Origin: Tubulanus polymorphus
Lineage: Eukaryota; Nemertea; Palaeonemertea; Tubulaniformes; Tubulanidae
DNA: 64,000 bases
Direction: 5' to 3'
Assembly (NCBI RefSeq): GCF_964204645.1
Contig: NC_134035.1
Location: 2,926,001 to 2,990,000, forward strand
Position 1 is the stretch's first letter. Each line of letters opens with the position of its first letter. This document shows positions 19,870 through 48,611 of the stretch, one piece after another. Under the pieces are notes generated by a model that saw only the letters and a program-made list of their open reading frames with translations, ran no database searches and had not been told where the DNA came from. The position numbers and the translations under genes are program-made.

Positions 19870-20079
19870 GTAAGCATCATCTCAACATCAATGAGATTTG
19901 ATATTGTACTAACCAGGTGGCGATCGCGTCACCGAAACCACCAGATGGCGATCCCACCATTTATGCCACCAGATGGAAATTTTACGCTTCATCAGCTAAT
20001 AACGAAAATGTTGCAGCCGCCGTGATATTTCAAGGTAAGACATATTCGATTTTAATCAATTAAATCTCAACATCGTCGA

Positions 20080-20669: not shown

Positions 20670-20829
20670 GTAAGTTTGATTTGCGTCAAATCATTTTAAG
20701 TTCGATAATCTGGGCAGGGTTTTATAGACCACATCATTTTCTCCTAGGGGTAAATCCTCAACCTTGGCCCGATTTCATAGACCGGGTTTCAATGTTGCCC
20801 CTAGCGGTAAATCCTCAACATAGGTGACA

Positions 20830-21190: not shown

Positions 21191-21273
21191 TTCTGATACC
21201 GAATTCTCCAAACAGTAAGAAATCATTTAATGTTTCGATGATTTAATCAATGTTGATCGTTTTGTTTTTCCAG

Positions 21274-21321
21274 AGAGACGAAATGCCGTTACGGCGGTCG
21301 CCGCGGCTACAACGCCGTAGA
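21274..21321 (+). pseudogene. Copy of exon 39 (48 nt), frame and splice sites intact
   Basis: TTTTTCCAG precedes, GTAAGTTTG follows. It reads RDEMPLRRSPRLQRRR, against RDEIPPLRRSPRLRRRR in the gene. Changes include synonymous ones, which supports a coding history for this exon. Confidence 0.8.
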
Positions 21322-21465
21322 GTAAGTTTGAATTGTTTACTGAGTTAGTGGTATTCCAGACCTGATAACGACTTTGAGAGTAGTGCCTCCATTTTTAAGA
21401 GCTTTGAAATATCAAAATACTTTCAAGATCACAATGATTTCTAGTTGTGGTTATTTTTCGATCTC

Positions 21466-21506
21466 TTTCATCTGAACCTTGGCTGTTGGAGGGGGAGTTA
21501 CGGGAG
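21466..21506 (+). pseudogene. Second, internally deleted copy of exon 42
   Basis: DLFHLNL-like sequence is joined directly to LLEGELRE and the GTAAGCATCATCTCAA donor/intron. The middle of exon 42 is missing. Confidence 0.65.
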
Positions 21507-21538
21507 GTAAGCATCATCTCAATTTGTTTATTTAACAA

Positions 21539-21604
21539 TCATTGAAGAGATTAGGCGGAATATCGCCGTGGATCCGCGGTATTTAGTTAATTTTTTGACG
21601 CGAT
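21539..21604 (+). pseudogene. Copy of exon 41 (66 nt)
   Basis: It reads IEEIRRNIAVDPRYLVNF, then LTR, with the same length and phase as exon 41. The donor GTAAGTACAACTTTTTGCA is conserved. The acceptor TTTTACAG of the gene is TTTAACAA here, so it is broken. Confidence 0.8.
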
Positions 21605-26455: not shown

Positions 26456-26645
26456 TAGTATGACTGCGTAACTTGACTGAATGACTACACTACTACTGCT
26501 GATTAACTGACTACCATGACCGATGAAAAAAACTGTTTCGTTGAACTGCTGATTACCCGGATACAGGAAGCAGTTGAATCGTAAATGACCCAGTGAAGCA
26601 GTGAACAAACAAGCCTACCTCGTTACTGGATCATTTACGATTCAT

Positions 26646-27107
26646 CTACTCCCTGTACCCACGCCTAAACAAGACCGATTTTAAATCATGTAAAAGAGCC
26701 TTTGATCTATCCGAAGATAGAAGCTCCTCCCACGGTCCCACGGAACCGCGAGCCACCACCCGCACTTCGGCGCGGCATCGGTCGCTGGACAGAACTCTGT
26801 CCAGCGCCGAAACCGGGGCAGCGGCCAACGGCTCCACGGGGGCAGGAGGAACTCCTCTTACCTCCTCAACCTCCACGACCATCTCCTCTTCTACCAGTTC
26901 CGGCTCCGGCTCCGGCTCCGGGACCGGTTCAAACACCGGTTCCGGTTCCGGCTCCGGCTCCGGCACCGCCTCCACCACCTCCGGAACTGCCACGACGCCG
27001 ATCTCCTCCCCTCCGCCACCGCGTCGCTCCCCCTCGGGAGGCGCCACACCACCGCGACGAACCGCCGGACGGCGTCGTCTTCGATGCCGAGCGGTGCGCG
27101 TGCCCGT
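26646..27107 (-). CDS. Exon 43 (terminal, 153 aa and stop)
   Basis: Acceptor TTTTTTTGCAG, phase 0, stop TAG at 26,646-26,648. It opens TGTRTARHRRRRRPAV, then a Gly/Glu segment, then Pro-Glu repeats (PEPEPEPEP twice), an acidic EEE stretch, and a C-terminal part with two LSSDR motifs and the ending LFRRGYRE. The GC-rich composition differs from the AT-rich surroundings. The repeated GGTTCCGG-type words on the plus strand come from the Pro-Glu codons. Confidence 0.8.
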   Translation of the reverse strand, partial: TGTRTARHRRRRRPAVRRGGVAPPEGERRGGGGEEIGVVAVPEVVEAVPEPEPEPEPVFEPVPEPEPEPELVEEEMVVEVEEVRGVPPAPVEPLAAAPVSALDRVLSSDRCRAEVRVVARGSVGPWEELLSSDRSKALLHDLKSVLFRRGYRE

Positions 27108-28626
27108 CTGCAAAAAAAAGAAAACATTCATTTACTAAATGATCGGTTGAAAAGTGATTTTTTACAGAAAATTTTCGGATCAGTAACCGAGCTGAAATAA
27201 TGAAACAATTGATTACATATAAACAAAGAGATAAATCGTCGCGATCTGGGAAACAATATTCTAAAGGGTTAGAAAATAAAGCAAAAAAAAAAATGACGAT
27301 GGCTCGCTGAAAATGAAAGTATTATTAAAGAAAAGATATTATAAGTGATTCATAAAAACTGTTCGTGTGAGAGAAATTCATTCGAAATCAAAACTGAGAG
27401 AAATATAAAAAAAACAGTTAATGTTGAGATGATGCTTACCTCCCGTAACTCCCCCTCCCACAGCCGCCCGTCCACGCGACGGGACCACCTCTGTGCAAGA
27501 GGGTGCGGCTGCCGGAGGGTCCGCTGCCTAGGGCGCCTATCCGGGGAGGCAGCAGCTGGAACGGGGTCTGCCAGCTGGTCATCCAAGACAGGACCAAGGT
27601 TCAAGTGAAAGAGGTCTATGGCCTCTTTCACGTCCTCCGGACCATCCTCCACCGTCTCAATTAATATTGGTTCCACTGTAAAATATAAAATAGAAAGAAA
27701 TACATTAACAATCAGGAGAAACAATTAATATATCAAGGGCAGATCCAGTCCCCCGCCTTTAATATCTTGAGGTGCCCTCGAGATATTTTAGGAATTTCTT
27801 TTTCCATTTTATAAAGAAATATCAAGTATTCCCTCATGATGGCTATCGAATAGCCTCGGGCAACAAAATTTCAAAATTTTCTGGGGAGAAACACTTAAGA
27901 CCCCTTTCATCCCTTCACGAGTGCTCATGTGCCCTTCAGTAAACCTTCCAAAAATCCTGGCTCAGCCCTTGTAGATTTACAGTGAACCCAGTGTAGCTAG
28001 TAATCTCATTAATACAAAATGGTTGACTTTCCACTTGAAGTGTGATTGGTTGCCAATAATTTGTGACATCATCATGCAGCAGAATGTGGGATGCGGAAAG
28101 AATACAATATCAGTCTCCATGAGTGACATTGATGGGCTGGTTGAGAGTTTAGGGTTGTCGGGACAGGGTTACTACAGTACAGCACAGAAGTAACTAAACA
28201 TTGTATCATTGTATTGTACAGTCACATGAACAAATAAATAGGTGTTATACCATCAGCGAACCATCACTTAACCATCAGGTGAACCCCTGCCATAACCGCA
28301 AACCATGATTCATGATGATTTGGAAATAATTCTAAATGGTAGGCATGGAAACTTGTTAAAATTGATCTAGTTCATAAAATGCAGTCTATTTTCTCTGATT
28401 CAAATCAGTTCAAGAAGACTTTTTTGGCAATGCTTCAATTAACAGCGTAAAATGGATGCAAAAACGATGGTTTATTCAGACCGCGCGGTATCACTGGTCG
28501 TATTTAAACCAAATTTGATGCGGTATGTGTTTAAAACAATGAGCGACATATGGTATATGGAGTATATTACTTCATGCCTTGCCAAACACTAATTACTTAC
28601 TCACCAAATCACTCAATTAACCTGTT

Positions 28627-28698
<72 letters not shown>

Positions 28699-31600
28699 TA
28701 TATATAATTAATCCGTTTTTAGTCAATATCTCACACCTGACGATGATCTCTAGGGTGAGATCGAAACGTCGTGTTCTTATGTTTTAGATTGTTTCCATAA
28801 ATAAATTCTCGATTTTAGAATTCTTTTAATTTGTAAATAAAGTTGGTTTTTTATCTTATTAACCCTTTCAGTGCTGACTGATCAATACCCTATAGTGCTG
28901 GAGATAATTTGAAAATTTTGAAAAATTCCACCCAAGTGTGTTGAATAACGGGAATAGCACTACAGTGCGTCTACACCACGGCGCGGTGTATCGTTAGTTA
29001 CTGATATTTCACGATGTGTCTGAAAATGGTTGACGCCGCACGAAAATAAATAGGCTTTTGTTATACAGAATTCTGTAAGGGGAACAATGATCTCTTTTTT
29101 CTTTTTCAATTATTTCTAGGATGTACCGTCAATAAGACCCGGGGCTTGATGAGGCAGTGGCTGCGTTACTGTGGCAAGCGAGGATCAGCTAGTGGTTACT
29201 CCTCAATAACCGTGCTTCAATTTCGTCGACACTTCCCGATTGAACTGTAGCCGACTCATCGCTTTATCAATACGCGAAAGTTCACGATTGGTAGAACACT
29301 TTATCCGTGTTGACGCGATGAGGAGAGAATCCCACAATGATAATAAAAAGTCCGAAAATGAAACTTCATAATAATCAGGAATTATTCCTGAAGATGACTA
29401 TTAGGATATAGTCGAAACGTTGAAATAAACTACTATCTCGAAGTTTCATTTTTGGACTTTTTATTATCATGATGTGATCAGTGGAAAGAGAGAGGAGAGA
29501 GTATAAATGCAAAAAGTTGTACTTACATCGCGTCAAAAAATTAAGTAGATACCGCGGATCCGCGGCGATATTCCGCCTTATCTCTTCGATGACTGTAAAA
29601 TAAATAAATGAGAAAAATTATTAGTATTTCATTAAATCATGGACGATCAATAGGAGTTTTACGACGTGGACAATACAGTCAAAGTCTGTTATACTGCCGC
29701 CATACTCCATCAGGAGTGACATGATTATGGGTATTTTAACGTGCTGGATCCAGTTCCACAAATGAGTTAACTCTGAACTCAGGATCCAGTTCCACACATG
29801 AGTTAGATTTAACTCTGAACTCAGGATCCAGTTCTACAGTTACGAGTTAAAGTTAACTCTGAACTCGGGATCCAGGACCCAGTTCCACAGTTGTGAGTTA
29901 CAGTTAACTAAATTAATCATCAGTTATCAACAGTAAGGCGCTCAGTAACATCTTTCATATTTCTGTTCAAATCAGAGACAAATTCAGTATTTCTTGTCAT
30001 AAAATAGTAACAAATACCGAAAATCAGTAACAGTTTGGGCAGCTCTGCTAAAAATGTCTGGCTACAAACGGACATATCTAAATAGGATCATGAATATGTG
30101 TAGACTTACCATTTTCCGTCGCATCGACGGCGGGGGCGGCAGCTGCATTTTCTGCCTATAATATAATAACAATCATGATGTTAAGGTTTAAGAAAACAAC
30201 AAAAAAATTTGTCAAAATTCATGCAGTTTTTACTAGCGTTTCGATAACACGAATCGTAATTAGAGAGATAATGGGGCCAATTCCCTATATGAAATCAAAA
30301 GCTGAAAGAGAGCCTGCAAACAAGAGCATTTCAAGAGCTCAACTAATGCAGCGCAAAGTTTCCAAACAAACCAAGAAATCACAATTTCAAAGTTTTTCTT
30401 GATTTCTCTTTATAGTACATTCGGCGTTCATGTATAGCAGTTCCGGTCCATTGGATAATCCTTTCATCATCGCTTTAATGAAATTTGAACAGTAGGGAAC
30501 TGGCACGCCAGCTATCCCTTCAGATGGCACCGCTTAGGTATGTGAGACAATCTAATGGGACAGAAAGTGAACAAGAAGTGCGACAAGTCGTCGTCAAATT
30601 AGAGCATTGATATTTTTTCGCGCATCTCTTATTGTATTAATAGTGAGCACTGGATCATATCATTACGGTTAAAAATACCCGACTATTTGATATCTCTAAT
30701 TTGAGTAGTTTTCACCTGAATATATGACAGCGCAAGGGCTCTAATAACTTACTCTTCGGCGTCTCAGCCGCGGCGATCGCCTCAGCGGCGGTATCTCGTC
30801 TCTCTGGAAAAAACAAAACAATCAACAGTGATTAAATCATCGAAACATTAAATGATTTCTTACTGATTGGAGAATTCGGTATCAGAATAGCTCGGTAGGA
30901 CCAGAGAGATTCAGGGATTCTATATGTGAATAGCTCGGTAGGACCAGAGATTCAGGGATTCTACATGTGAATAGCTCAGTAGGACCAGAGAGATTCAGGG
31001 ATTCTGTATGTCTTCCTGTTCATTGACGTGTCAGTAATGATCAACACATTCAGTGTATTTGATGCATTATAATTATTTTCACTTATAGTTCAAACTTACA
31101 TCAGCTTGCGGCGGCGGCGGCGGCGTCGCAGGTGTTTCAGTCTAAAAAGTAAAAAAACGATATTTCCATTGGTTATAAAAACATGAAAATGATTCATTTC
31201 AATTTAATATAATAAAACTTGGTTCCACAGTTCAGGACCCAGTCCCACAGTTACAGAACCTGGCTCCGCAGTTCTGGACCCAGTCCCACAGTTACAGAAC
31301 CTGGCTCCGCAGTTCTGGACCCAGTTCCACAGTTTGAAGTTATGATCTAGTAAAGAGATACCGATCCTAGTTTTCCAGCCAATGATATTCAGTTAGTTCC
31401 GTGCGATGGTCATCAAGCCGATTGTCATCAATTTCTAGATCTCTCCCTGTCCCGCCGCCCCAGAATTAGGTATTTTTACTTTTTTTTGGTTTCGATTTTT
31501 TGGTGCCACGAGATCCAAAGCAGAAGAATTCTACACTATTTTAATTCTTTTTCCGATGCAGATTTTGAAAACAATAAAATATCCTCATAATCATTGGTGA

Positions 31601-34600
31601 ACCACAATGATAATAATCTACATGACTTAAAACAGGAAATAATGGTCAAGTCTTCATGAATAACCATGAACTGTGGGTGCAGAGACGCGAAAATCACTTG
31701 AAAAGTGGTTTGAACGCTCGGACAACTGGAAACATTTAAAAATTTGTCAGTTTTTACCATAGTTTATCATTGTTACAATGGTGGTTGTCACCTATGTTGA
31801 GGATTTACCGCTAGGGGCAACATTGAAACCCGGTCTATGAAATCGGGCCAAGGTTGAGGATTTACCCCTAGGAGAAAATGATGTGGTCTATAAAACCCTG
31901 CCCAGATTATCAATAAACTTATTTGAAATTAGCTTCACTTAAAATGATTTGACTCAAATCAAACTTACTTTAACCGGTCCGACGCGTGCCCGTTTAGGGC
32001 TAACGGGGTCCTATAAAATAAAAACAAGTTGAAATCAACATCCAGAATTTTCAAACATATTTCTGAAGGAAATCTCAATTTCAGATTATCTTAATAATCT
32101 TTGGTGAGCCACGAAAATGATAATCTACACAACTAAAAAATGTAAATGAATAACCATTAACTGCGGGTGCAGAAACGACAACACCACTTGCAAAAAGGGC
32201 TTCAACAAACTCTCCACAATCACAAGAGGCACGTACTACCATCGCGAAAATCTTGTGCCTTTTTTTCCATGCCCAAAATAGATGTTCAAGCCACTTGGAA
32301 AGTGGTTTTTTTCACATCGACAAACTCTCGTCGCAATCACAAATCATACTTGTCGTAAGCTTAAACTTTCACAAGATCCCGTCGGCAGGCGGACAGACGG
32401 AGAGACAGGCGGACAGACGGAGAGACAGGCGGACAGACGGAGAGACAGGCGGACAGACGGAGAGACAGGCGGACAGACGAACGGACTGTAAAATGATTTG
32501 ATGAAATTCAAACTCACCGATGCCGGTACCTCGAGCTTCCTCTTCTATAAAATAAAAAATCAACTTTAGTTTAACGACGTCAACAAAAATTCAGACATAT
32601 TTCATCTGCAGTCGTTTGTGTTCAACTGTAAATTCAATAGAAATGTTCACAATATTTACCGGCACATTCACGCACGTGTGGAATTCATTTCTCTACATAA
32701 AAAGAAAAACAAGAGCTCAATTTAGCATTTATGAAAATCAGAATAAATTATCTCGAATCTCGCATTTTTTTAATAGCTTGGTTGACAGGGTAGACTATTG
32801 AAATATCATTTCGGAAAATTTAAAAAAAAAAGAACTCGCTCAGCGCGATAAACACAGTTTTTGAAGGAAGAGGGAACGATCGATAGGGCAATATACATAT
32901 GTCCAAAACAATGATCCTTGGAAAGTTCGAATTCTGCACACAAATGTGATCAAAAAAAGAATAAACGTGCGTTTTTCAATTTTTTCATCATTCAAGCCGG
33001 GATTCTCATTCGGCGAAGGTGAAAAACTTTTTTGCTCGTTTTCCACTGAATTTGTTCCACGGATGGGAGTAAAAAAAAATTCTACTTTTGACTTTTCTTC
33101 AAATTTCGGGAGGCGGTTCCCGTAAACCAAGCTATTTAAGAAAAAGCCTCATCTGGTGAACCATCAAAAATAGTTATTATTACGTTATAGGTTGTTACTA
33201 ATGATCGGATTTATGAGAACCACAACGGTATAGTGTACATTATGGAATAAAGTTCAAGTTTTTGTCAGTAGATGGCAGGCAGGTGGTATTTATAAAGTCA
33301 CTGGGTGTCAACATGTGTAACTGAAATTGTCTATTGTAAACTTACGTCAATTTGCACAATACGCGCGATTTCCGATTCCTAGAAATGTAAAGAAAAAAAA
33401 TTCTGAAATCAAGTTTTGAATAACTATACCACGGATGAAAGATTCCATGATCGAAATTCTTAGTTGACCCTCGATTTAGAGACTATTTTGAGGATAATTG
33501 AACCGATGGATGCTGCGTGACATGATTTCAATATTCTACTAACTCGGTCTGAAGAATATTCACATCGATACAAAACTGTGACCGAGCCGCAACTTTTAAA
33601 CATTCTTAGTTTCACTTAAAAACATTGCTTCACGCTATTATCAATGCCAATTTTACGAATAATATGAACTCGGTAAGATGAATATTCGCATCGATACAAA
33701 CTGTGACCGAGTGCGACTACTTTCAAACACTCTTTAGATATAACTGGCTTCAGCTGTGATTAATTTAGGACCGAAGATACTACTCTATATAGCTTAATCA
33801 GTAGCGGATCCAAACTAGATTCCATTGTATTCCGGAATATAGTCAGAATAACATTTTTTTTTTTAAAGTAACTCGATCCAACAGAATGTCCCAGATACAA
33901 GGAAATTAGAACATATTTCAAAATTTTTATTGGTTAGGACCCCTAAACTGCGGCAGCTGCAGCGGTCAGGCAAAAAATATCTTTAAGGAATATAGCCAAA
34001 TTCACCAGCCCCCCACGGAACTGCCCCTAAGTAATGACATTTTAGAATTGAACCCATGATACAATATAGCGGCTGCAGCGCTGCAAACAGATCGGTCACA
34101 ATTACCAGTGTTTATGTTTTCCAACAACAAATAAGCTAGCAAAAACTAGGTGCCTTTAGCCTACGAGCAAAATTGGTCGTAGCTTTAGCCAAGTTTGACC
34201 TTGGTGGAGATATGCTATGGGATCTCTTAGAACATGGATATTTCAGCAGGAAAATCAATATCAGATTATAATAATCTGGTGAACTACGAAAATAATTATC
34301 TTTTACAACTTACGATAATGGTAGGAGCCTCGGGCTCCGGCGGCGGCGGCTCTGGGAAATCATCATTCTAGTAATCAAAATAACATGAAATATCATGAAA
34401 AATTCTAGCTAACCCTAAAAGCGAGTATATATGGAGCCACCCACTAATGAAAGGGATGGCTCCAAATTCACTGAGAACGAGTAGGCGATCAAAAGGATAT
34501 TTACCCAAAGGTCGTCGAATAAATTGATGTCCTATAAAAAAGAATACAAAAAATTTATTAAGATAAAATGTACGTATGTTTTTGGTAAATGACACTTACT

Positions 34601-37600
34601 GATCACAAGTGACATATGGTCACGATAGTATCACAATTGCTTGCCAGTGAGGCTAGGCGTTCACCAGAGCCAAGTTTCATAGATGTTGGGAAAAAATAAT
34701 ACCAGCTGGGATCATTTCGAAATTTTTCAGTTATTACCAAGGTTTTCATTATGAAGTTGTCACCTATGTTGAAGATTTACCTATCGGCAACCAACAGGGC
34801 TGCCAACCTCTGAAAAGTGCTATCAGTAACAAATTGCAATATGAAAATAAATGTTCAAATCAATCAGTAATCAACAGTAAGACCCTCAGTTAGATCTTTC
34901 ATACTTCTCATATGCATCGAACAAATCAAATCAGTATTTCTTGTCATAAAAGAGTAACAAATACCGAAAATCAGGAACAGTTGGCAACTCTGGGTAACAT
35001 TGATATCCGGTTTACAAAATCGGGCTCAGGTTGAAGAAATACCTCTAGGGTATTATTGATATACAGTCTATGAAACAGGGCTAAGGTTATCAATATTTAA
35101 CATCGATATCGAAAATGATTTAATGAAATTGAAACTTACCTCGTCACGCGGAATCTTCGGCGGGCTTACGGGTTGCTGTAAAATATTTAAAAAAAGTTGA
35201 AATCAACATTCAGAATTTTGATACACATTTCTTTAGTAAATCTCAACTTTCAGATAGTCATAATCTATATTGAACCACAATGATAATAATCTACACGACT
35301 TAAAACAGGAAATAATGGTCAAGTCTTCATGAATAACCATAAGCTGTGGGTGCAGAGACGTGAACATCACCGACCGACCGACCGACCGACCGACCGACCG
35401 ACCGACCGACCGACCGACCGACCGACCGACCGACCGACCGACCGACCGACCGACCGACCGACCGACCGACCGAGGGTAGACCACCCTGATTTTGGTAAAA
35501 ATCTATCAAATTCCCCAATCTTTCTGATTCAATGAGATTGTCAGGTTGTCTAGGACATTAGCACCCTTGAATTGCTGAACAATGCCTATACCACTGGCGA
35601 TTGTGAGATCCTATCTATGGACGAAAAGACAGATTGAAAGTAATAACGGGAGAACGATTCGATAGAATTCAAACTGACCTCGTCGACGGATCGGCGTCGC
35701 TTTCTGGTGACCTATAAAATAAACGAGCAACATTTAGATTTAATCATTTTTCATTTTCAAGTTCATGATCACGTGTAGTTCGAACATGGAAAGCATTTCA
35801 TGAGAGAAATTGAGTGGAGCCGATTTAAGACTGCGAGGAAAGATATCAGTAATGTCAGTGATGAGCGAAAACTAAAAACATGGCCAAAACTTACTTCTTT
35901 CGTTGTTGTTATTGTTTGTTTGCTCTGATGCCATGAAAGAAAAAAAGAGAATTAATTTTAGTTTTGTTATTTTATGTTCAGTAGCACACGTAGGTATCAA
36001 TATACGTAATAAATGAGTTCTAAGCGACGGATGCCTCGTTATAGATATTGTTTTGATTCTGTATCGTTATTTAATAAAACGAACAGGAGAATTTTTATGA
36101 CTTTGTTCCCGGTATGAAATACATTGGCTGTCAGATAGAAATGAACACGACAGAAAATCCATGATACAGAAAAATGCTGACTTACTTCCTTCGGTGCTGT
36201 TGCTGTTGGTTTCTGTTGCAATAAAAGAAAGAAAATTCAGTAAGTTTTTTTCTTATATTTCATATTCAGCAGGAAACGTTAATAAACACAGTAGACATAA
36301 AAACTGGACAGGTTTATATAGATATCTGTATCTGAAAAATGATTTTGATGTCATTAGCATAAATATCTTACATTAAGTTAAGTGCAATTCCTGAGTGCTA
36401 ATGGATTAAAGTTGATGTTAAGACAGGATCATCTACGAGGGAATACACGGGAAACGAATGACGCTTAATTATAAAATTGAAACTTACTCGTACAGGAATG
36501 GCCGCTGCCGCTGCCGGAGCTGTTGCTGTTGGTTTCTGTTGCAATAAAAGAAAGAAAATTCAGTAAGTTTTTTTTTTTATATTTCATATTCAGCAGCAAA
36601 CGTTAAACACAGAAGACACAAAAACTGGGCAGGTTTTATATCTGTGTCTGGAAATCGATGAAAATCGCAAAAAATAATTGCCCATAGGCCAAGAGGTTTA
36701 CCACAGCCTTATGAAATGCTTATATCAGGTAACGAAATAGGGATGTAAAGTGTAAGGTGCGAGAAGTTTCGGTCTCGGTTAGAGAAATGAACGTAATCAT
36801 AAAATCGTAATTATAAAATAGAAACTTACTCGTGCAGGAACGGCCGCTGCTACTGCAGCTGTTGTTGTTGGTTTCTGCTGCAATAAAAGAAAGAAAATTC
36901 AGTTTTGTTTTAAATTTCATATTCAGCAGCAAACGTTAATAAACACAGTAGACATAAAAACTGGACAGGTTTATATAGATATCTGTATCTGAAAAATGAT
37001 TTTGATGTCATTAGCATAAATTTCTTACATTAAGTTAAAATCAAACATGCCACATGGTAAATCATTTTGAAGGGAATCGAACTCAGATTAAATTCTGTAA
37101 CTTTTGACAAAATTCTGATGAAAAGCTCTTTAAGAATCGATTGTTATATTATTTGATGATCATTGGTTTACATATATCTGTTGGTTAATATTATCAATGA
37201 ACTTGTGGTCCAGTCGCCAATCCCACGCGAAAAATGATTTGGACGCTTGATAATCAGACTTATTTAATATTCAACGCCCCCCGGTGAAAATATACAAAAA
37301 CCGTTGACCTTGAAACTCGTCACTATCATAGAAAATGTCGCAAGTGAACAGATGGAGAGATGAACAGACGGACAAAAAAGTCCATGATACAGAAAACTTC
37401 AAACTTACAAATGCTGCTGCTGTTTTTGCTGCTGCTGCTGCTGCTGCTTTCGTCTGCTATAAAAGAAAAGAGAATTCATGAATTTCTTGCGTTATTTCGT
37501 ATTCAGTTGCAAACATTAAACATAGATCATATCTTGATTAAAACAAAAGAAACAAAAAACAAGTTTTTAACCTGTGTTTGGAAAAACTCTGATATTTATG

Positions 37601-40600: not shown

Positions 40601-43600
40601 CCCCGAGGGGTGCAGGGGTAGCGGACCCTTTTCAAGATAGCTAACTTCTCAAGTTAACATGTAATCAATGTTCAAGATTTTTCTTGCCAATTTGACTTAA
40701 GTCCTTTAACTCTAAGTGATTCATTTAGAGCCTGGAAAACGTCTCTAAAGCCTCAAATTTAAAAAAAAGTTTTTTGGGGGAGGCCCCCCAAACACCAGAC
40801 ATTGTGCTTGGATGCTGGATTGATGCTTATTCGAACCCCGTATGAAAATTCCTGGGGACGCCTATGAGAACCTGTTTTAAATAACGCACAGGTATGAATG
40901 TATATGAACATCGTTGTAATTCCAGTTTTTACGGCATCAAAAAAGTTGCGATATTTGCTTCGCTATTAACACTCCCTCCCGTTAGATAATACAGTCGAAT
41001 TACCAAAAAATTGCATCAAAAGATTGAATCGTGAGAGCATCTCAAAAACGACATTTCAATAAATTGTCGTTAAGCCCTTGGGTTGTTTATCCTATACCTG
41101 AAATTTAAGGAGTTAGCAAATAAACTGGTCGCTGAGCTATAATTAATTGGAGAGGCGCAGTGGCCAAGTGGACTAAGCCGCCGGTCACTGGCTCCAGGGT
41201 TTATAGGTTCAAACCCTTGTGACGACAGAGTTTCTTAGTCGAATGTTTTTCTCTGGTCTCTTAAACAACGAATCCACTTATAATGCCATGTGTGGCGCTT
41301 AGCGTTTTGAGGCTCTTAAAAAGAGCTATAATTCGTGCAAATTAGGTTCAAACCCTTGTGACGACAGAGTTTCTTAGTCGAATGTTTTTCTCTGGTCTCT
41401 TAAACAACGAATCCACTTATAATGCCATGTGTGGCGCTTAGCGTTTTGAGGCTCTTAAAAAGAGCTATAATTCGTGCAAATTAGATCATTTTTCAAAAAA
41501 TTGTTACCAATCTTTTCTAAGGGTCAGTCATACCCTAGAAACCTTTCAATTAACATTAAGCTCATCTCTTACAGTTTTCACTCTATGGAGCTCGAAAGTT
41601 TCTATCGATTTTCCTACTTTTATGTTACCAATGATGGGCACTCTGAGTGTTTTTTTTTATCAAATCACCCGTGAGTGCTGAAAGAGTTATGCCCTTGGAT
41701 GATATATACTGGGAGGTGGGTTGATCCGACGTGGCTCCTTAACTCATTTCCACCCAAACACGTACTCGTATGTTCGTTATCTCCCATCACATTCCTGCCA
41801 AAACCGTACTGGCAAAATGGTTGGCTTGTTTCTTAACTCAAAACCGTACCGATACGGTTGGCTTGTTTCTTAACTCAAAACCGTACCGATACGGTTTGCT
41901 TGATTCTAAACTCAAAACCGTACCGATACGGTTGGCTTGATTCTTAACTCAAAACCGTACCGATACGGTTGGCTTGGTTCTTAACTCTAACGATAGATGG
42001 CGAATTCATCGCACAACACCAGTTAGTTTAATGCCTTTTACTACTAAACAAACTCATCAGTTGTTCTATACAGTGTGCGAGTGACATCATCTATTGAAAT
42101 GGGGGCTGAACACGCATGAACGAGCATATATTCTGCAAAATACTCCCTCTGCACTGGTTATCGCTACAGATTTTATCACTCTTAGAAGAAATGCCGCTTA
42201 TTTTACATGAAAATGCAAGACCAGATCAAAGATATAAAACAAATTTGATGAGAAGATATCTCTTCTTGTTTTTGTTTTATGAATCTCTGAAAAACACGGA
42301 AATCCTGGCAAAACGCAGCATTGCCTGAAAAATAGGCGTGGCAGGCAAAGAGTTACGAATGTTCTTCATTTATATTCCCGCTTTTTTTCTCATATACCCT
42401 AATTATTCACTCGCCTTAAGCCCGCCGCACCGGCATAACATTTGTTTCGCCAAAACAGAAAACACACTTTTCAGAACACGTTTTGCCCACAAACAATAAA
42501 ATGTTCAACGGACACGACATTTTGCTGTTCGGCGTTTTGTGTTTTGCCTTCCCCGCACACGGCATAACAAAAAACAGGCTTTAACCTCATGTACTAACAC
42601 AATACAAATCATTTTCATCTCAAGTCTCAACATATTACAATTGATAACCAGCCAACAGAACGGATACATCTAAACTTACTTCGATGTCTGGGGACGCCAA
42701 CGTGGACCTCGTTCCAGTGTGATGCTGTAAAAGAATAAAATTCATTAATACAAAGCCTAGGAATTGGTAAATCGACCATGGAAAACATCATCTTGTTTTG
42801 CAGAAAATCTACCAGGCGAAAGAAAAAAAACGAGTCGGAATCTATTCAATCGTTGCGCTTATGAAAATCAGCACCAGTTTATGGGCATAAAAATGTGCGC
42901 CAAGAATTGAATTTGATGACCAATACAAATAAACCAAAAATAGACAGGTTTGATATCTGTAACCGAATTGGATTTAGAGCCGCCTTTTTTCAGGTCAAAA
43001 ACGATAAGTTACAAAGGTAATCGAACTCCGATTAAATTCTGTAACTTTGATGATAATTCTGACGAAAAACTCATAAGAATCGGTTGTTTCAAGGTAACAG
43101 AAGAATTAATACTTACTGCCTTTGCTGCTGTTTGTTTACGCTGATGACATGAAAGAAAAAAAGAGAATTCCTTTTAGTTTTGTTATTTCACGTTCACACA
43201 TTAAATACAGTAAATATAAATACATCAATAAGAGATACATAAAATATATGCACATATATCCGTGAGCAAATGCTTCCAGATTTTACTGTGTGTGCTAATA
43301 TTATATAAAAAAAACTTGATATATAAAATAATTCTAAGTGACGGGAATTTATTTCATTGAAAGCAGGATTATTTTCATGACTTTGTTCCTGGTATGAAAT
43401 ATACAATGAAAATCAGAAACAAATCATCGTCTGTCAGAAAGAAATAAACACCACAGAAATTCCATGATACAGAAAACTTCTCACTTACTTCTGGTGCTGT
43501 TGTTGTTCTTGTCGTCGTCGAATTCTGTCGCAATAAAAAAAAAAGAGAATTCATGAATTTCTTGCATTATTTCATATTCAGTAGCAAACATTAATAAACA

Positions 43601-46600
43601 CAGGAGATCATATTATAATTAAAACAAAAGACAAGTTTTATATCTGTATTCGGGAAAAACCTCGATATTTCAGTATTCGTTTGTTTTAGGGTTTTATTTA
43701 AACAATATAAAGTCCATTAAACAGAAAAATTCAAACTTACTGTATTCGTCGCTGTTTGTCTGTTCTGTTGCAATAAAAGAAAAGAGAATTCATTAATTTC
43801 TTGCATTAAAACTCTGATCTCTGTAACTTTGATATTTCTGTATTCGTTTGTTTTACAGTTTGATTCAAACGATATAGAGTCCATTAAACAGAAAAATTCA
43901 AACTTCTGTTGTCGTTGCTGCTGCTGCTACAGCAGCAGCAAACTGTCGCGATGAAAGAAAAGTAATTAATTGCGTTGTTATTTCATATTGAGTAGCACAC
44001 ATTTAACAGAGGTCATGATTAAAACGAATACCAGACAGGTTTAATATCTGGAAAAAGATTTCATCAGAGTAAACTTGTTACAATGAGAGAAAACCAAAAA
44101 CACCAAGCGATAAATCAGTTTGATAATTCCTTTCATCGGGATATTTGCACTTTAAAAATGACAATTGTAATTATTATCATTACTATTATCATTATTACTA
44201 CGAGTTTGATGATAATTATGAACTATATGCGCAAATATAAGCGTATGTGTAAGTAAGCGCGCACACAAACTGAAGACGAAATCAGTAACAACTTGCTTAA
44301 AGAGTTATGAAGTTTCAATGACTCAGCAAAAATGGTAGATATCATATTCCACCGAGGAGATTAATAGAAAACTTACAAAATGAATTTCCGCTTCTACTGT
44401 TATCTAGAAAAGAGAATTAACATTCATATCTATAAAAATCATTCATTAAATGATCAATGAATCTAAGCGCCAGTTTTATGGAGACCAATGTTTACTTTAG
44501 TAAATCTGGGTTAACTTGATTAAAAGTGAATTCAGTTAGCTGAGCACGGGTTAAAGATAATACCAGTCTAACCGGCTTCAGAGGACCAGGTTAAACAAAA
44601 CAGGTTTATATAAAATGATATCATAAAATCTAAACTTACTGGCGGCGGAATTTCCTCCAGGACTTCTGGCTGTTAGAAAAGAACAATAAATTCACATTCA
44701 GGTCAAAAACGATAGGTTACGAAGGGAATCGAACTCCGACTAAATTCTGTAACTTTGATGATAATTCTGACGAAAAACTCATAAGAATCGGTTGTTTCAA
44801 GGTAACAGAAGAATTAATACTTACTGCCTTTGCTGCTGTTTGTTTGCGCTGATGATATGAAAGAAAAAAAGAGAATTCATATTAGTTTTGTTATTTCACG
44901 TTCACACGTTAAATACAGTAAATATAAATACATCAATAAAAGAGATACATAAAATATATGCACATATATCCGTGAGCAAATGTTTCCAGATTTTACTGTG
45001 TGCTAATGTTATATAAAAAAAACTTGATATATAAAATAATTCTAAGTGACGGGAATTTATTTCATTGAAAGCAGGATTATTTTCATGACTTTGTTCCCGG
45101 TATGAAATATACGATGAAAATCACAAACAAATCATCGTCTGTCAGAAAGAAATAAACACCACAGAAATTCCATGATACAGAAAACTTCTCACTTACTTCT
45201 GGTGCTGTTGTTCTTGTCGTCGTCGAATTCTGTCGCAATAAAAAAAAGAGAATCCATGAATTTCTTGCATTATTTCATATTCAGTAGCAAACATTAAACA
45301 CAGGAGATCATATTATAATTAAAACAAGAGACAAGTTTTATACCTGTATTTGGAAAAACCCTGATATTTCAGTATTCGTTTGTTTTAGGGTTTTATTTAA
45401 ACAATATAAAGTCCATTAAACAGAAAAATTCAAACTTACTGTATTCGTTGCTGTTTGTCTGTTCTGTTGCAATAAAAGAAAAGAGAATTCATTAATTTCT
45501 TGCATTAAAACTCTGATCTCTGTAACTTTGATATTTCTGTATTCGTTTGTTTTACAGTTTGATTCAAACGATAGAGTCCATGAAACAGAAAAATTCAAAC
45601 TTCTGTTGTCGTTGCTGCTGCTGCTGCTGCAGCAGCAAACTGTCGCGATGAAAGAAAAGTAATTAATTGCGTTGTTATTTCATATTGAGTAGCACACATT
45701 TAACAGAGATCATGATTAAAACGAATACCAGACAGGTTTAATATCTGGAAAAAGATTTCATCAGAGTAAACTTGTTACAATGAGAGAAAACCAAAAACAC
45801 CAAGCGATAAATCAGTTTGATAATTCCTTTCATCGGGATATTTGCACTTTAAAAATGACAATTGTAATTATTATCATTACTATTATCATTATTACTACGA
45901 GTTTGATGATAATTATGAACTATATGCGCAAATATAAGCGTATGTGTAAGTGAGCGCGCACACAAACTGAAGACGAAATCAGTAACAACTTGCTTAAAGA
46001 GTTATGAAGTTTCAATGACTCTCAGCAAAAATGGTAGATATCATATTCCACCGAGGAAATTAATAGAAAACTTACAAAATGAATTTCCGCTTCTACTGTT
46101 ATCTAGAAAAGAGAATTAACATTCATATCTATAAAATTCATTCATTAAATGATCAATGAATCTAAGCGCCAGTTTTATGGAGACCAATGTTTACTTTAAT
46201 AAATCTGGGTTAACTTGATTAAAAGTGAATTCAGTTAACAAAGCACGGGTTAAACATAATACCAGTCTAACCGGCTTCAGAGGACCAGGTTAAACAAAAC
46301 AGGTTTACATAAAATGATATCATAAAATCTAAACTTACTGGCGGCGGAATTTCCTCCAGGACTTCTGGCTGTTAGAAAAGAACAATAACATTCACATTCA
46401 GGTCAAAAACGATAAGTTATGAAGGGAATCGAACTCCGATTAAATTCTGTAACTTTGATGATAATTCTGTTGAAAAACTCATAAGAATCGGTTGTTTCAA
46501 GGTAACAGAAGAATTAATACTTACTGCCTTTGCTGCTGTTTGTTTACGCTGATGACATGAAAGAAAAAAAGAGAATTCATTTTAGTTTTGTTATTTCACG

Positions 46601-47322
46601 TTCACACGTTAAATACAGTAAATATTAATACATCAATAAAAGAGATACATAAAATATATGCACATATATCCGTGAGCAAATGTTTCCAGATTTGACTGTG
46701 TGCGCTAATATTATATTAAAAAAAACTTGATTATAAAATAATTCTAAGTGACGGGAATTTATTTCATTGAAAGCAGGATTATTTTCATGACTTTGTTCCC
46801 GGTATGAAATATACGATGAAAATCACAAACAAATCATCGTCTGTAAGAAAGAAATAAACACGACTAGAAATTCCATGATACAGAAAACTTCTCACTTACT
46901 TCTGATGCTGTTGTTGTTGTCATCGTCGCTGAATTCTGTCGCAATAAAAAAAAAGAAGAGAATTCATGAATTTCTTGCATTATTTCATATTCAGTAGCAA
47001 ACATTAAACACAGGAGATCATATTATAATTAAAACAAGAGACAAGTTTTATATCTGTATTTGGAAAAACCCTGATATTTCAGTATTCGTTTGTTTTAGGG
47101 TTTTATTTAAACAATATAAAGTCCATTAAACAGAAAAATTCAAACTTACTGTATTCGTCGCTGTTTGTCTGTTCTGTTGCAATAAAAGAAAAGAGAATTC
47201 ATTAATTTCTTGCATTAAAACTCTGATCTCTGTAACTTTGATATTTCTGTATTTGTTTGTTTTACAGTTTGATTCAAACGATATAGAGTCCATGAAACAG
47301 AAAAATTCAAACTTCTGTTGTC

Positions 47323-47357
<35 letters not shown>

Positions 47358-48611
47358 AGCAGCAAACTGTCGCGATGAAAGAATAGTAATTAATTGCGTT
47401 GTTATTTCATATTGAGTAGCACACATTTAACAGAGATCATTATTAAAACGAATACCAGACAGGTTTAATATCTGGAAAAAGATTTCATCAGAGTAAACTT
47501 GTTACAATGAGCGAAAACCAAAAACACCACGCGATAAATCAGTTTGATAATTCCTTTTATCGGGATATTTGCACTTTAAAAATGACAATTGTAATTATCA
47601 TCATTACTATTATCGTTATTACTACGAGTTTGATGATAATTATGAACTACATGCGCAAATATAAGCGTATGTGTAAGTTAGCGCGCGCACAAACTGAAGA
47701 CGAATCAGTTACAACTTGCTTAAAGAGTTATGAAGTTTCAATGACTCTCAGCGAAAATGGTAGATATCATATTCCACCGAGGAGATTAATAGAAAACTTA
47801 CAAAATGAATTTCCGCTTCTACTGTTATCTAGAAAAGAGAATTAACATTCATATCTATAAAAATCATTCATTAAATGATCAATGAATCTAAGCGCCAGTT
47901 TTATGGAGACCAATGTTTACTTTAATAAATCTGGGTTAACTTGATTAAAAGTGAATTCAGTTAGCTGAGCACGGGTTAAAGATAATATCAGTCTAACCGG
48001 CTTCAGAGGACCAGGTTAAACAAAACAGGTTTATATAAAATGATATCATAAAATCTAAACTTACTGGCGGCGGAATTTCCTCCAGGACTTCTGGCTGTTA
48101 GAAAAGAACAATAACATTCACATTCATTAGAATTATTTGAAAAATAAGCATCTGGGGGCGGTTGCACGTCAATCGAGACTTAAGTCCGAAAGTGGTCTTA
48201 AATCTTAAGACTGGTCTTAAGTTGTTAGATTGGCTATAGAACCAAGTTGGTCTTAGACTGATCTTAAGTGTAAGCCCTGACTATGGAACCGGCCCCAGAA
48301 AATGTTTCAGTTTTGAATATTGATTGTAACATCAAATGATAACCGGTCCCGGGTTCAATTCCACATTTAATTCATTATTCCATCTGTATCCTGGATGGTT
48401 AGTGAGGTGGAGTGGACGGTATCTTTGATGGGTTGGTATGAACGCCAACACAAGGGGGAGTGGGGGCGGGGGATTTAAATCTAGCTCCGATATATCGATG
48501 ACGTAGTGCACATCTACTCAGGTAAGTATACTAGGTATCAATGTAGATACAGACATATTATTGGAACAAAAAAAAATGAATACTTACTATCTGCTTTCGT
48601 TTTGGAGCCAT
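26646..48611 (-). CDS. Micro-exon gene, 43 coding exons, 754 aa predicted, unrecognised
   Basis: The function is not known. What is seen: a start exon (MAPKRKQI, Kozak-like AAATATGG), 42 further exons each bounded by pyrimidine-rich AG acceptors and GTAAG-type donors, and a single open frame through all of them. Exon lengths sum to 2,265 nt. 38 exons are 54 nt or shorter. Exons 1-39 are phase 0 multiples of three; exons 40 (46 nt), 41 (66 nt) and 42 (236 nt) restore the frame through two phase-1 introns. The protein starts with a basic tag and continues through Thr/Ala-rich, KR-rich and Pro/Glu segments. Several KRK/KRAR/RKRRR clusters suggest nuclear import (inference). Exons 2-19 are a triplicated cassette. 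No AATAAA was found in the first kilobase after the stop. A 5' UTR exon upstream of 48,615 is likely because the start exon has its own acceptor. Individual exons could be alternative; nearly all can be skipped without a frameshift. Confidence 0.78.
27440..27675 (-). CDS. Exon 42 (236 nt)
   Basis: Acceptor TATTTTACAG, donor GTAAGC. It enters in phase 1, completing a Leu codon, and leaves in phase 0. It starts EPILIETVEDGPEDVKEAID, continues through LFHLNLGP and a basic RRPRQR stretch, and ends LWEGELRE. With exon 41 the first ~50 residues look like an ordered, helical region. The family is not recognised. Confidence 0.82.
27734..27971. mobile_element. hAT-like miniature element in intron 41
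   Basis: The ends CAAGGGCAGATCCAG and CTGGCTCAGCCCTTG are imperfect inverted repeats (13 of 15). The length is 238 bp with no coding capacity. Target duplications are not clear. Confidence 0.5.
28629..28694. repeat. (TA)n microsatellite
   Basis: About 33 TA units in intron 41, nearly pure. Confidence 0.95.
28734..28773 (+). ncRNA. Hammerhead-ribozyme-like core motif 1
   Basis: CTGACGA (28,737-28,743) is followed by a perfect 6-bp stem (GATCTC 745-750 with GAGATC 757-762, 6-nt loop), then GAAAC (763-767). This fits the hammerhead core CUGANGA - helix II - GAAA. Minimal hammerheads of this form are known at the ends of Penelope-like elements. Helix III and a cleavage site are not convincing here, so activity is unproven. 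Confidence 0.45.
28863..29015. mobile_element. End fragment of a TTAA-type (piggyBac-like) element
   Basis: It begins directly after TTAA (28,859-28,862) with CCCTTTCAGTGCTGACTG. It matches, inverted, the right end of the element at 49,890-50,748, including the imperfect palindrome around ACACC...GGTGT. The other end is not found. Confidence 0.6.
29337..29470. mobile_element. 134-bp foldback element with hammerhead-like loop
   Basis: The arms 29,337-29,367 and 29,440-29,470 are 31 nt with one mismatch (start ATGATAATAAAAAGTCC). Between them lies CTGAAGA (29,388-29,394), a 6-bp stem (GACTAT/ATAGTC) with 6-nt loop, then GAAAC (29,414-29,418), the same architecture as at 28,734. The inverted gene copy at 21,650-21,672 keeps CACTGATCACATCA but lacks this element, so it serves as an empty site. 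Confidence 0.7.
29527..30803 (-). CDS. Exons 39-41, phase switch
   Basis: Exon 39, 30,753-30,803, RDEIPPLRRSPRLRRRR, phase 0. Exon 40, 30,110-30,155, AENAAAAPAVDATEN plus one base. It is 46 nt, so the next intron is phase 1. Exon 41, 29,527-29,592, completes a Val codon and reads IEEIRRNIAADPRYLLNF then LTR plus one base. In any other phase exon 41 meets a stop, and phase 1 is exactly what exons 40 and 42 require. Copies of all three exist on the plus strand at 20.1-21.6 kb with mostly conservative changes. Confidence 0.82.
29745..29910. repeat. Dispersed minisatellite, GGATCCAGTTCCACA family
   Basis: About four irregular units with GGATCCAGTTCCACA and GAGTTAACTCTGAACTC. Relatives lie at 31,225-31,335 (TGGACCCAGTCCCACAGTTA) and 52,330-52,385. 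Confidence 0.65.
29915..30050. repeat. Intronic duplicate (pair with 34,855-35,000)
   Basis: It shares TCAGTATTTCTTGTCATAAA and AACAAATACCGAAAATCAG with 34,855-35,000 in the same orientation. This is further evidence that introns of the gene have been copied internally. Confidence 0.6.
31100..33378 (-). CDS. Exons 34-38
   Basis: Exon 34, 33,346-33,378, ESEIARIVQID. Exon 35, 32,660-32,692, RNEFHTCVNVP (donor GTAAAT, the least certain of this group). Exon 36, 32,518-32,544, KRKLEVPAS (donor GTGAGT). Exon 37, 31,969-32,010, DPVSPKRARVGPVK, with an SPKRAR nuclear-localisation-like cluster. Exon 38, 31,100-31,141, TETPATPPPPPQAD. All are phase 0. Exon 37 has a partial copy on the plus strand at 20,588-20,669. 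Confidence 0.72.
31536..31880 (-). repeat. Intron 37 segment with plus-strand inverted copy; partial third copy at 35,240-35,370
   Basis: 31,536-31,760 is near-identical (inverted) to 20,855-21,080. A third, more diverged part lies at 35,240-35,370. The 74-codon open frame across it is intronic and shared only because the DNA is duplicated. Confidence 0.7.
32388..32478. repeat. 20-bp minisatellite
   Basis: Four to five exact units of GGCGGACAGACGGAGAGACA in intron 36. A related single motif (GAACAGACGGACAAAAAAG) occurs at 37,360. Confidence 0.9.
34314..35711 (-). CDS. Exons 30-33
   Basis: Exon 30, 35,679-35,711, VTRKRRRSVDE, donor GTCAGT, basic cluster. Exon 31, 35,140-35,175, QPVSPPKIPRDE. 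Exon 32, 34,505-34,531, DINLFDDLW, acidic/aromatic, donor GTAAAT; LFDDL resembles a short linear interaction motif such as a clathrin box, but context does not decide. Exon 33, 34,314-34,367, NDDFPEPPPPEPEAPTII. All are phase 0. Confidence 0.72.
35371..35474. repeat. (ACCG)n microsatellite
   Basis: About 26 pure tetranucleotide units in intron 30. All frames are open, giving PTDR or VGRS repeats that should not be taken as protein. Confidence 0.97.
35895..36877 (-). CDS. Exons 26-29, KPT-A/T repeats
   Basis: Exon 26, 36,830-36,877, QKPTTTAAVAAAVPAR. Exon 27, 36,488-36,535, KPTATAPAAAAAIPVR. Exon 28, 36,186-36,212, KPTATAPKE. Exon 29, 35,895-35,924, SKQTITTTKE. Exons 26-28 share acceptor sequence (TTTCTTTTATTGCAACAG or near it) and intron sequence with each other. 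Parts also match the cassette introns, so this block too grew by local duplication. Exon 26 has tandem CAGCAG acceptors that could add or drop one Gln. Confidence 0.72.
37409..37839 (-). CDS. Exons 23-25, basic then polyalanine
   Basis: Exon 23, 37,813-37,839, TLKEKRKME. Exon 24, 37,686-37,712, RERKKKALE. Exon 25, 37,409-37,456, QTKAAAAAAAKTAAAF (or 3 nt shorter if the second CAG is the acceptor). All are phase 0. A GCA run makes the alanine tract. Introns are short (100 bp between 23 and 24). Confidence 0.7.
38591..38710 (-). CDS. Exon 22 (40 aa), possible KH-like end, contains hairpin
   Basis: 120 nt, phase 0, acceptor TTTACAG, donor GTAAGAATA. It includes VIVDTPRVHAIVVVRGPK followed by an amphipathic segment ending ELRDRLVAQE. 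The pattern hydrophobic-strand, xRGPKxxV, helix resembles the last strand and helix of KH RNA-binding domains; the GxxG loop is not seen, so this is a weak suggestion. Inside the exon, 38,614-38,671 is a nested inverted repeat (see its own entry). Confidence 0.72.
38614..38671. other. 58-nt nested hairpin inside coding exon 22
   Basis: The outer arms 38,614-38,626 (GTAGTTCGTGGGC) and 38,659-38,671 (GCCCACGAACTAC) are perfect complements (13 bp). The inner arms 38,633-38,642 (GTAGCAGTTG) and 38,644-38,653 (CAACTGCTAC) are perfect (10 bp) around one base. Unpaired bases lie only at 627-632 and 654-658. 23 perfect pairs in 58 nt is far beyond chance. Confidence 0.92.
39078..39158 (-). CDS. Exon 21 (27 aa)
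   Basis: 81 nt, phase 0, acceptor ATATTTCAG, donor GTAATG. The peptide starts EIETVFELKLGTSLRASF and ends TRKHP. With exon 22 it forms the only stretch of this part that looks globular rather than low-complexity. Confidence 0.75.
39615..40105. mobile_element. Miniature DNA transposon in intron 20 (TIR CAG[AT]GTTGCCACTT)
   Basis: The left end is CAGAGTTGCCACTT and the right end AAGTGGCAACACTG. The direct repeat TATATT sits immediately outside both ends (39,609-39,614 and 40,106-40,111). 491 bp, no transposase. The ends resemble the hAT superfamily (CAG...), but hAT duplications are usually 8 bp. Confidence 0.6.
40104..40555 (-). mobile_element. SINE-like insertion flanked by ~58-bp direct repeat
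   Basis: 40,108-40,166 and 40,497-40,555 are near-identical direct repeats (TATTACAAAATGGATAAGCG onward). Between them the minus strand has a B-box-like GGGTTCGAATCCC (about 40,187-40,199). No good A box or tRNA fold was found, so the tRNA origin is tentative. Confidence 0.4.
40592..40866. mobile_element. Miniature DNA transposon (TIR CATAGGCGTCCCC)
   Basis: The left end is CATAGGCGTCCCCGAGG and the right end CCTGGGGACGCCTATG, with 12 terminal bases in perfect inverted match. 275 bp, non-coding. Confidence 0.7.
41149..41482 (+). mobile_element. tRNA-derived SINE with tandem tail duplication
   Basis: An A-box-like TGGCCAAGTGG (41,161-41,171) and B-box-like GGTTCAAACCC (41,206-41,216) are spaced as in a tRNA promoter. 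The 5' acceptor strand has no 3' partner, so this is not a tRNA gene. The 139-bp segment from AGGTTCAAACC to GTGCAAATT occurs twice in tandem (41,205-41,343 and 41,344-41,482), so the second copy repeats the B box and body without an A box. Confidence 0.7.
41800..41988. repeat. ~37-bp palindrome-bearing minisatellite
   Basis: Five units; four contain AACCGTACCGATACGGTT, which folds with 7-bp arms and a CCGA loop. The first unit (AAACCGTACTGGC) is incomplete. The linker is GGCTTGTTTCTTAACTCAAA. Confidence 0.9.
42680..42724 (-). CDS. Exon 20: HHTGTRSTLASPDIE
   Basis: 45 nt, phase 0, acceptor TTCTTTTACAG, donor GTAAGTTT. It is the first exon after the triplicated region. The next intron (about 3.5 kb) is the longest of the gene and holds two small transposons and a SINE. 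Confidence 0.72.
43117..44669 (-). CDS. Cassette C, exons 14-19
   Basis: Exon 14, 44,640-44,669, PEVLEEIPPP. Exon 15, 44,377-44,403, ITVEAEIHF. Exon 16, 43,904-43,942, FAAAVAAAATTTE, with the alanine codon run interrupted by GTA and the same weak donor. Exon 17, 43,741-43,764, NRQTATNT. Exon 18, 43,489-43,524, NSTTTRTTTAPE. Exon 19, 43,117-43,140, RKQTAAKA. Confidence 0.75.
44825..46368 (-). CDS. Cassette B, exons 8-13
   Basis: Exon 8, 46,339-46,368, PEVLEEIPPP. Exon 9, 46,076-46,102, ITVEAEIHF. Exon 10, 45,601-45,639, Ala-rich, 13 aa, weak GTTTGA donor. Exon 11, 45,440-45,463, NRQTATNT. Exon 12, 45,197-45,229, NSTTTRTTAPE. Exon 13, 44,825-44,848, RKQTAAKA. It has the same exon order and splice sites as cassette A; exons 8, 9, 11 and 13 encode identical peptides to their cassette A counterparts. 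Confidence 0.75.
46525..48094 (-). CDS. Cassette A, exons 2-7
   Basis: Exon 2, 48,065-48,094, PEVLEEIPPP. Exon 3, 47,802-47,828, ITVEAEIHF. Exon 4, 47,313-47,366, F-Ala-rich-TTTE, 18 aa from an expanded GCA run. Exon 5, 47,150-47,173, NRQTATNT. Exon 6, 46,900-46,935, NSATMTTTTASE. Exon 7, 46,525-46,548, RKQTAAKA. All are phase 0. Donors are GTAAGT-like except exon 4 (GTTTGA), which is weak; exon 4 may be skipped or decaying. The 1,726-bp cassette repeats twice downstream. Confidence 0.75.
47507..47845 (+). CDS. Antisense 112-codon frame in cassette A, doubtful
   Basis: It is open only in cassette A. The equivalent frames in cassettes B (45,780) and C (44,084) stop near codon 60. It encodes a hydrophobic stretch rich in Ile/Thr (about residues 26-47) that would be a membrane segment. 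It overlaps exon 3 of the gene on the opposite strand. I regard it as probably fortuitous. Confidence 0.12.
   Translation: MSENQKHHAINQFDNSFYRDICTLKMTIVIIIITIIVITTSLMIIMNYMRKYKRMCKLARAQTEDESVTTCLKSYEVSMTLSENGRYHIPPRRLIENLQNEFPLLLLSRKEN
48152..48298. mobile_element. Miniature element in intron 1
   Basis: The ends CTGGGGGCGGTTGCA and TGGAACCGGCCCCAG are inverted with few mismatches. The body is full of GACTTAAG/CTTAAG(T)C words. 147 bp, non-coding. Confidence 0.6.
48588..48611 (-). CDS. Exon 1 (start): MAPKRKQI
   Basis: The exon itself spans 48,588-48,615, with TTTTCTAG before it and GTAAGTATT after. ATG is at 48,609-48,611 with A at -3 and G at +4. The coding part is 24 nt in phase 0. PKRKQ is a short basic cluster. 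Confidence 0.75.

Follow-up and report, generated by a model that had tools for sequence, protein, structure and literature searches.

The micro-exon gene of the window

The stretch of DNA analysed here (the window: 64,000 nucleotides of Tubulanus polymorphus, C11:2926001-2990000) carries on its minus strand a gene of 43 coding exons, which has been rebuilt from an ATG at 48611 to a TAG ending at 26646 with GT...AG at every junction. A sequence-only reading had proposed a 43-exon micro-exon gene open from ATG to stop, and the rebuilt model agrees with it in structure, the single open frame being of 2,262 nt including the stop (753 aa) instead of the 2,265 nt and 754 aa given earlier. The count of 38 exons of 24-54 nt among the 43 came out the same on rebuilding, and the remaining five measure 81, 120, 66, 236, and 462 nt. 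Lengths divisible by three are found in 41 of the 43, the exceptions being exon 40 (46 nt) and exon 42 (236 nt), and only exons 41 and 42 start in a phase other than 0. The symmetry claimed for the phase-0 exons is borne out by a run of 38 consecutive ones (exons 2-39), each of them a multiple of three. That reading had all 43 exons but overlooked that exons 2-7 are repeated as three blocks of about 1.7 kb (2-7, 8-13, and 14-19) and that exons 4, 10, and 16 have a weak donor, the non-consensus GTTTGA found at their 3' ends. The features are as follows:

48588..48611, minus strand: exon 1, with the start codon and MAPKRKQI; found in all six mapped copies
46525..48094, minus strand: block 1, exons 2-7 (48094-48065, 47828-47802, 47366-47313 with the weak donor, 47173-47150, 46935-46900, 46548-46525)
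44825..46368, minus strand: block 2, exons 8-13 (46368-46339, 46102-46076, 45639-45601 with the weak donor, 45463-45440, 45229-45197, 44848-44825)
43117..44669, minus strand: block 3, exons 14-19 (44669-44640, 44403-44377, 43942-43904 with the weak donor, 43764-43741, 43524-43489, 43140-43117)
42680..42724, minus strand: exon 20
39078..39158, minus strand: exon 21 (81 nt)
38591..38710, minus strand: exon 22 (120 nt)
35895..37839, minus strand: exons 23-29 (37839-37813, 37712-37686, 37453-37409, 36877-36830, 36535-36488, 36212-36186, 35924-35895)
30753..35711, minus strand: exons 30-39 (35711-35679, 35175-35140, 34531-34505, 34367-34314, 33378-33346, 32692-32660, 32544-32518, 32010-31969, 31141-31100, 30803-30753)
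30110..30155, minus strand: exon 40 (46 nt, phase 0 to 1)
29527..29592, minus strand: exon 41 (66 nt, phase 1 to 1), equal in size and phase in the related subfamily
27440..27675, minus strand: exon 42 (236 nt, phase 1 to 0), conserved domain
26646..27107, minus strand: exon 43 (462 nt), family-defining C-terminal domain and TAG stop
26559..26660, minus strand: predicted stop-codon RNA hairpin, arms 26660-26625 and 26594-26559, with the stop codon in the first arm
19738..21603, plus strand: inverted and degenerate pieces of exons 42, 39, and 41, lying downstream of the gene

The exon signal was measured with a generic micro-exon rule, made without any training on this gene (a pyrimidine tract with YAG, an open multiple of three of 21-57 nt, and then GTRAG). 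On the minus strand of 27.7-49.0 kb the rule returned 32 candidates, namely 30 exons of the model and two alternative acceptors of model exons, against none on the plus strand of the same interval, while 100 dinucleotide shuffles averaged 0.62 candidates and never exceeded 3; therefore the signal is real, and a chance origin of the exon set is rejected. Elsewhere in the window the rule gave 1 and 0 candidates on the two strands of 1-26 kb, and 0 and 0 at 50-64 kb.

The encoded protein contains seven basic clusters of at least three K/R, together with long Ala/Thr/Pro and Pro-Glu runs. The absence of a signal peptide, as read earlier from the sequence, agrees with the MAPKRKQI start and with a hydropathy scan in which no strongly hydrophobic N-terminus was seen (best 19-residue value 1.36, at residue 19, over start positions within the first 22 residues). 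Searches of Pfam and NCBIfam with the gene, C-terminal module included, gave low-complexity or sub-threshold matches only, and a large protein database, whose coverage of near kin is uncertain, returned no relative, even in a search with the C-terminal domain at E up to 10. The PDB sequence search gave one weak match (E 0.08), viral scans with the C-terminal domain found no relative, and Rfam at gathering scores and a tRNA scan found nothing in the whole window. Judged by its composition, the product appears to be a nuclear-type protein made of a disordered variable array and a constant C-terminus. In this respect it can be likened, by description and not by sequence, to the PEVK region of titin, where a long series of small in-phase exons encodes disordered peptide; titin is not known to be a dispersed amplified family.

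Gene structures of a similar kind have been described in two groups of multigene families. The micro-exon genes (MEGs) of schistosomes possess many very short exons, mostly multiples of three and separated by long introns, and their proteins keep an N-terminal signal peptide, the longest having 189 residues and the short exons reaching 81 bp, according to one account (PMC10526429). The aphid bicycle genes are amplified and have numerous small internal exons of one phase, nearly always phase 2, with more than 100 micro-exons in megacycle, and many of their products carry signal sequences and CYC motifs (PMC9168663). The present gene resembles the MEGs in that most of its coding exons are tiny multiples of three, and bicycle and megacycle in its many small internal exons of a single phase and its amplification. 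On the other hand, it differs from the MEGs in its 753 aa, its nuclear-type composition, its lack of a hydrophobic start, and its conserved C-terminal domain, and from bicycle in being in phase 0 except for exons 41 and 42, in lacking a hydrophobic start and any CYC triplet (none in 753 residues, which include three cysteines in total), and in the variation of its cassette blocks between copies. The likeness to MEGs is one of gene structure; the protein database, whose MEG content is uncertain, returned no relative at all. The earlier statement that the peptide content is unlike that of the schistosome genes agrees with the basic clusters and the N-terminus without hydrophobicity. A secreted variable effector or antigen comparable to MEG or bicycle proteins is most unlikely: it shares the gene logic of many tiny single-phase exons, a multigene family, and a low-complexity product, but is opposed by the MAPKRKQI start, the several basic clusters, and the missing N-terminal hydrophobic segment. 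Among the matches listed in the open-licence literature on micro-exon families, in the portions available, no nuclear or subtelomeric micro-exon family was found.

Copies and relatives near the contig ends

The assembly comprises 267.8 Mb in 77 contigs; at least 150 matches to the rhodopsin-type GPCR family mark it as that of an animal, and a search for COX1 found no match in it. Copies of the gene were sought with queries taken from exons 21-22, from exons 41-42, and from a last exon; only the best candidates were scored, so that the counts are lower bounds. Window-type copies with an intact last exon number at least nine (the window, five more on C11, two on C9, and one on C8), and further partial or degenerate copies exist besides them. 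Among the 95 matches of the last-exon search, nine were of the window type, 34 belonged to a second subfamily, and 52 were partial or less similar, many of them with stops. The sequence-only reading, right about the micro-exon gene, had missed the dispersed copies, this larger related subfamily, and the variation present in the genome itself. No locus of either type (nine and 34) is more than about 3 Mb away from a contig end, to be read as 3 Mb in a 14-Mb contig, and two degenerate matches are located away from the ends (C8:7.76 Mb and C11:13.48 Mb).

When a 40-kb stretch was compared between the window and five of the eight other copies, aligned pieces of more than 600 bases were mostly 94-99% identical, introns and intergenic DNA included, with lower values in tandem-repeat stretches, and in four of the five comparisons the similarity continued to the end of the compared stretch (window 52.7-58.1 kb). 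Besides, window 0.2-2.7 kb has been found again next to all eight other copies, and window 59-60 kb next to three other copies and at three further places on C11; therefore, the duplicated unit is longer than 50 kb and in some copies extends to about 60 kb. Copies occur in both orientations, and in two pairs of neighbours, with spacings of about 78 and 82 kb, both members point the same way. These units are long, closely similar, and placed on C8, C9, and C11 close to contig ends (the ends of contigs, not telomeres, being what was located), which are the features of a subtelomeric segmental-duplication family. In Schistosoma mansoni, duplicated segments near chromosome ends contain an expanded gene family (PMC10900676). 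The duplicated end-proximal segments are alike in both organisms, but here the number of exons within the gene varies between copies too.

Several other elements have been observed around the gene. A whole-genome DNA search with window 200-2700 returned copies elsewhere, its own position not being among the matches listed. Window 4160-15087 is occupied by large minisatellite arrays, whose units measure 29, 72, and 28 bases, the 28-base array comprising 43 copies, and window 60090-61570 contains a 1.5-kb repeat with inverted internal segments that is present in at least 30 places on many contigs and is probably a mobile element. The inverted fragments of last exons on the plus strand (window 19738-21603; also locus L034) are scrambled, and if transcribed through they could pair with the gene as hairpin RNA; an intact inverted partner gene on that strand was rejected, scrambled fragments being all that was found. 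Inverted partial matches are also present among the C6-type genes, as the members of the second subfamily are called below.

This second subfamily comprises at least 34 intact last exons with 99-100% identity, located on C3, C6, and C8, and the C-terminal domain that its last exon encodes is 45% identical to that of the window type. One gene on C6 has been read completely and consists of nine coding exons (63, 102, 39, 27, 39, 82, 66, 230, and 393 nt) with GT-AG at each intron and a single open frame of 346 residues. Its last four exons correspond to exons 40-43 in order and phases, the 66-nt exon being of the same size. Within a long intron of a C6-type gene, a reverse-transcriptase-like remnant (YLDDWL, recognised by eye) lies at L030:9341-9571 of the C6 unit.

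Alternatively, the gene could be carried between chromosome ends by a mobile or endogenous viral element of very large size. The occurrence of closely similar units on three chromosomes and in both orientations would fit this, as would the mobile elements around (the 1.5-kb dispersed repeat at the right of the window and the remnant just described, which was identified by eye). However, Pfam found no match in ten other open frames of the window, the remaining frames having been viewed by eye, the C-terminal domain has no viral relative in the scans, and the two neighbour pairs about 78 and 82 kb apart have the common orientation seen in tandem segmental duplication, so that this origin is very unlikely.

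Variation of the exon array and selection

Six of the nine window-type copies have been read completely: the window, C9 0.97 Mb, and C11 0.39, 0.47, 1.66, and 1.99 Mb, with 43, 43, 44, 44, 42, and 46 exons, respectively. Overlapping exon hits were settled toward AG acceptors and in-frame lengths, a choice that favours the model, and exon 39 of two copies was placed by hand. Under this procedure GT was found in 256 of 256 donors and AG in all 256 acceptors. Exon lengths differ from those of the window counterpart in 50 of 262 cases, 49 of them by a multiple of three, and the sole exception falls in an exon of the exon-4 type. Frames are fully open in five of the six copies; in the C11 0.47 Mb copy one extra base is present in an exon of the exon-4 type, and omitting this exon leaves the frame open. 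The diversity is thus visible in the genome, where cassettes have been gained or lost and repeat lengths altered in threes: the KPT-type pair (exons 26-27) appears as two, three, or four exons depending on the copy, and one copy has an extra NRQTATNT exon.

The sequence-only reading had seen in this locus a combinatorial splicing generator, in which one gene would yield very many isoforms by the skipping of symmetric micro-exons. Such a mechanism would be well served by exons 2-39, all of them phase-0 multiples of three, and by the exons of the exon-4 type, whose donor is GTTTGA in 17 of 17 cases and which can all be dropped with the frame kept in each of the six copies. Because of this donor, and because one copy is without one of its exon-4 type exons, exons 4, 10, and 16 and their counterparts are probably optional or dead. 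Most other exons, nevertheless, have a near-perfect donor (GTAAGT in 197 of 256), which suggests constitutive inclusion, and the generator is possible but doubtful.

The array itself has grown by duplication of exon-plus-intron cassettes on several different scales, and homogenisation has been partial. An identity of about 70-91%, extending through exon and intron, links exons 24-29 to exons 4-7 and to the block copies of the latter, and exons 31 and 37 are paralogous cassettes (79% identity); links of 100% between neighbouring cassettes were disregarded as overlaps of the query flanks. The three blocks have a mean identity of 97.8% inside one locus; between loci the mean is 98.4% for blocks in corresponding positions and 97.6% for those in different ones. 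In divergent tandem copies at C8:13.995 Mb (L032, about 4829-7678), some of them with single-base deletions or a stop, exons 21, 22, and part of 23 are continuous, with no introns at the predicted junctions. This continuity supports the predicted junctions, and both intron loss there and intron gain here would explain it.

Selection was examined in 22 single-copy exons over all 15 pairs among the six copies, giving a pS of 0.030, a pN of 0.0065, and a ratio of 0.22, a value that, for copies a few percent apart, is drawn from a small number of events and could have been distorted by gene conversion. In the copies at C11 0.39 and 0.47 Mb, exon 39 shows many silent differences from the window and one residue change. 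Since this exon is much more diverged than the rest, with silent changes dominant, it is likely to be a conversion tract from an older paralogue. Without it, pS is 0.0195 and pN 0.0062, with a ratio, by division of these computed values, of 0.32. Substitution is slightly lower in exons (1.13%) than in flanking introns (1.41%), which by itself would be weak support for constraint. Exon gaps come in threes in 48 of 58 cases, the other 10 being paired 1-nt alignment gaps in exon 31 with net length unchanged, compared with 103 of 601 gaps in the flanking introns.

Among the 34 intact C6-type last exons, 17 were read, from three chromosomes, and the frame is open in every one. In these 17 loci, the C-terminal 69 codons have a pN/pS of 0.072, with eight of 10 variable codons silent, and the 25 codons directly upstream one of 0.56. 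The low C-terminal value on three chromosomes argues against the units being decaying repeats, that is, non-functional amplicons whose open frames merely reflect recent duplication, and so do the many silent differences beside a single residue change in exon 39, the length changes in threes outside one exon, and the intact splice sites. Decay would agree, on the other hand, with the identity of about 94-99% that extends to non-coding DNA in most aligned pieces, the existence of degenerate inverted fragments, the frameshift in one copy, and the closeness of exon and intron divergence; altogether it is an unlikely explanation.

The predicted stop-codon hairpin and the meaning of the family

The end of the gene is predicted to fold into a long, near-perfect RNA hairpin, whose 5' arm holds the TAG together with the codons before it and the bases after it. 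Its predicted energy is -72 kcal/mol (z -11.5), and that of a C6-type hairpin (L031:5775-5880) -46 kcal/mol (z -9.5), with none of 200 shuffles as stable in either case. The hairpin has been found in six of six window-type copies, two of them with one mismatch, and in all 17 C6-type copies read. The stems of the two subfamilies are dissimilar by eye, and both enclose the stop codon. The one degenerate inverted copy examined does not form it. As the stem of the C6-type hairpins is almost invariant, its changes are too few to reveal covariation. Among the 25 longest of 40 pairs of inverted repeats at 26.0-49.5 kb, there are AT runs, an intronic pair at 29329-29478, and the hairpin, with no others. 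An RNA stem-loop near the stop codon is also known from headcase-type genes; here, by contrast, the stop codon itself lies within the stem, and read-through would add few residues only. A long read-through product was rejected, given that an in-frame stop follows after four more codons in the window gene and after two in the C6-type gene. The hairpin may instead take part in the control of termination or stability, in the editing of the UAG in the duplex, or in the supply of small RNAs.

The evidence as a whole is best explained by a functional and apparently lineage-restricted animal gene, located on long duplicated units near contig ends, which encodes a largely low-complexity nuclear-type protein with a variable phase-0 micro-exon array and a conserved C-terminal module (exons 41-43), and this reading is probably correct. 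The array has expanded by duplication of exon-plus-intron cassettes (single exons, a block of six exons, and three blocks), and phase-0 symmetry allows cassettes to be gained, lost, or lengthened without damage to the C-terminal module. The product would work in the nucleus, cassette turnover between copies would be the chief source of protein diversity, skipping, above all of the exon-4 type, may contribute some more, and the stop-codon hairpin may regulate the mRNA. Amplified gene families elsewhere have often been linked to germline dosage or genetic conflict, in the part of the literature considered, and the best guess for the present gene is that it encodes a protein of the germline or of chromatin and was amplified for dosage or in the course of intragenomic conflict. 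A bolder and rather improbable extension would be a nuclear family amplified by conflict near chromosome ends, with the C-terminal module under strong selection, the array reshuffled in both DNA and RNA, and the hairpin, whose position is kept across subfamilies, controlling the whole family as a switch in the RNA or as a source of small RNAs.

The biological significance of the functional-gene reading is that a micro-exon gene logic, best known from secreted effectors of parasites and insects, would here be found in another animal and for a nuclear-type protein. A second and separate puzzle is posed by the hairpin that encloses the stop codon, which more than 40 loci would share if the unread copies resemble the 23 read. 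Finally, the natural copies with different exon numbers offer a test of how symmetric arrays arise, expand, and stay in frame, and the same copies allow a test of whether the diversity of such a family comes from genome rearrangement or from splicing.
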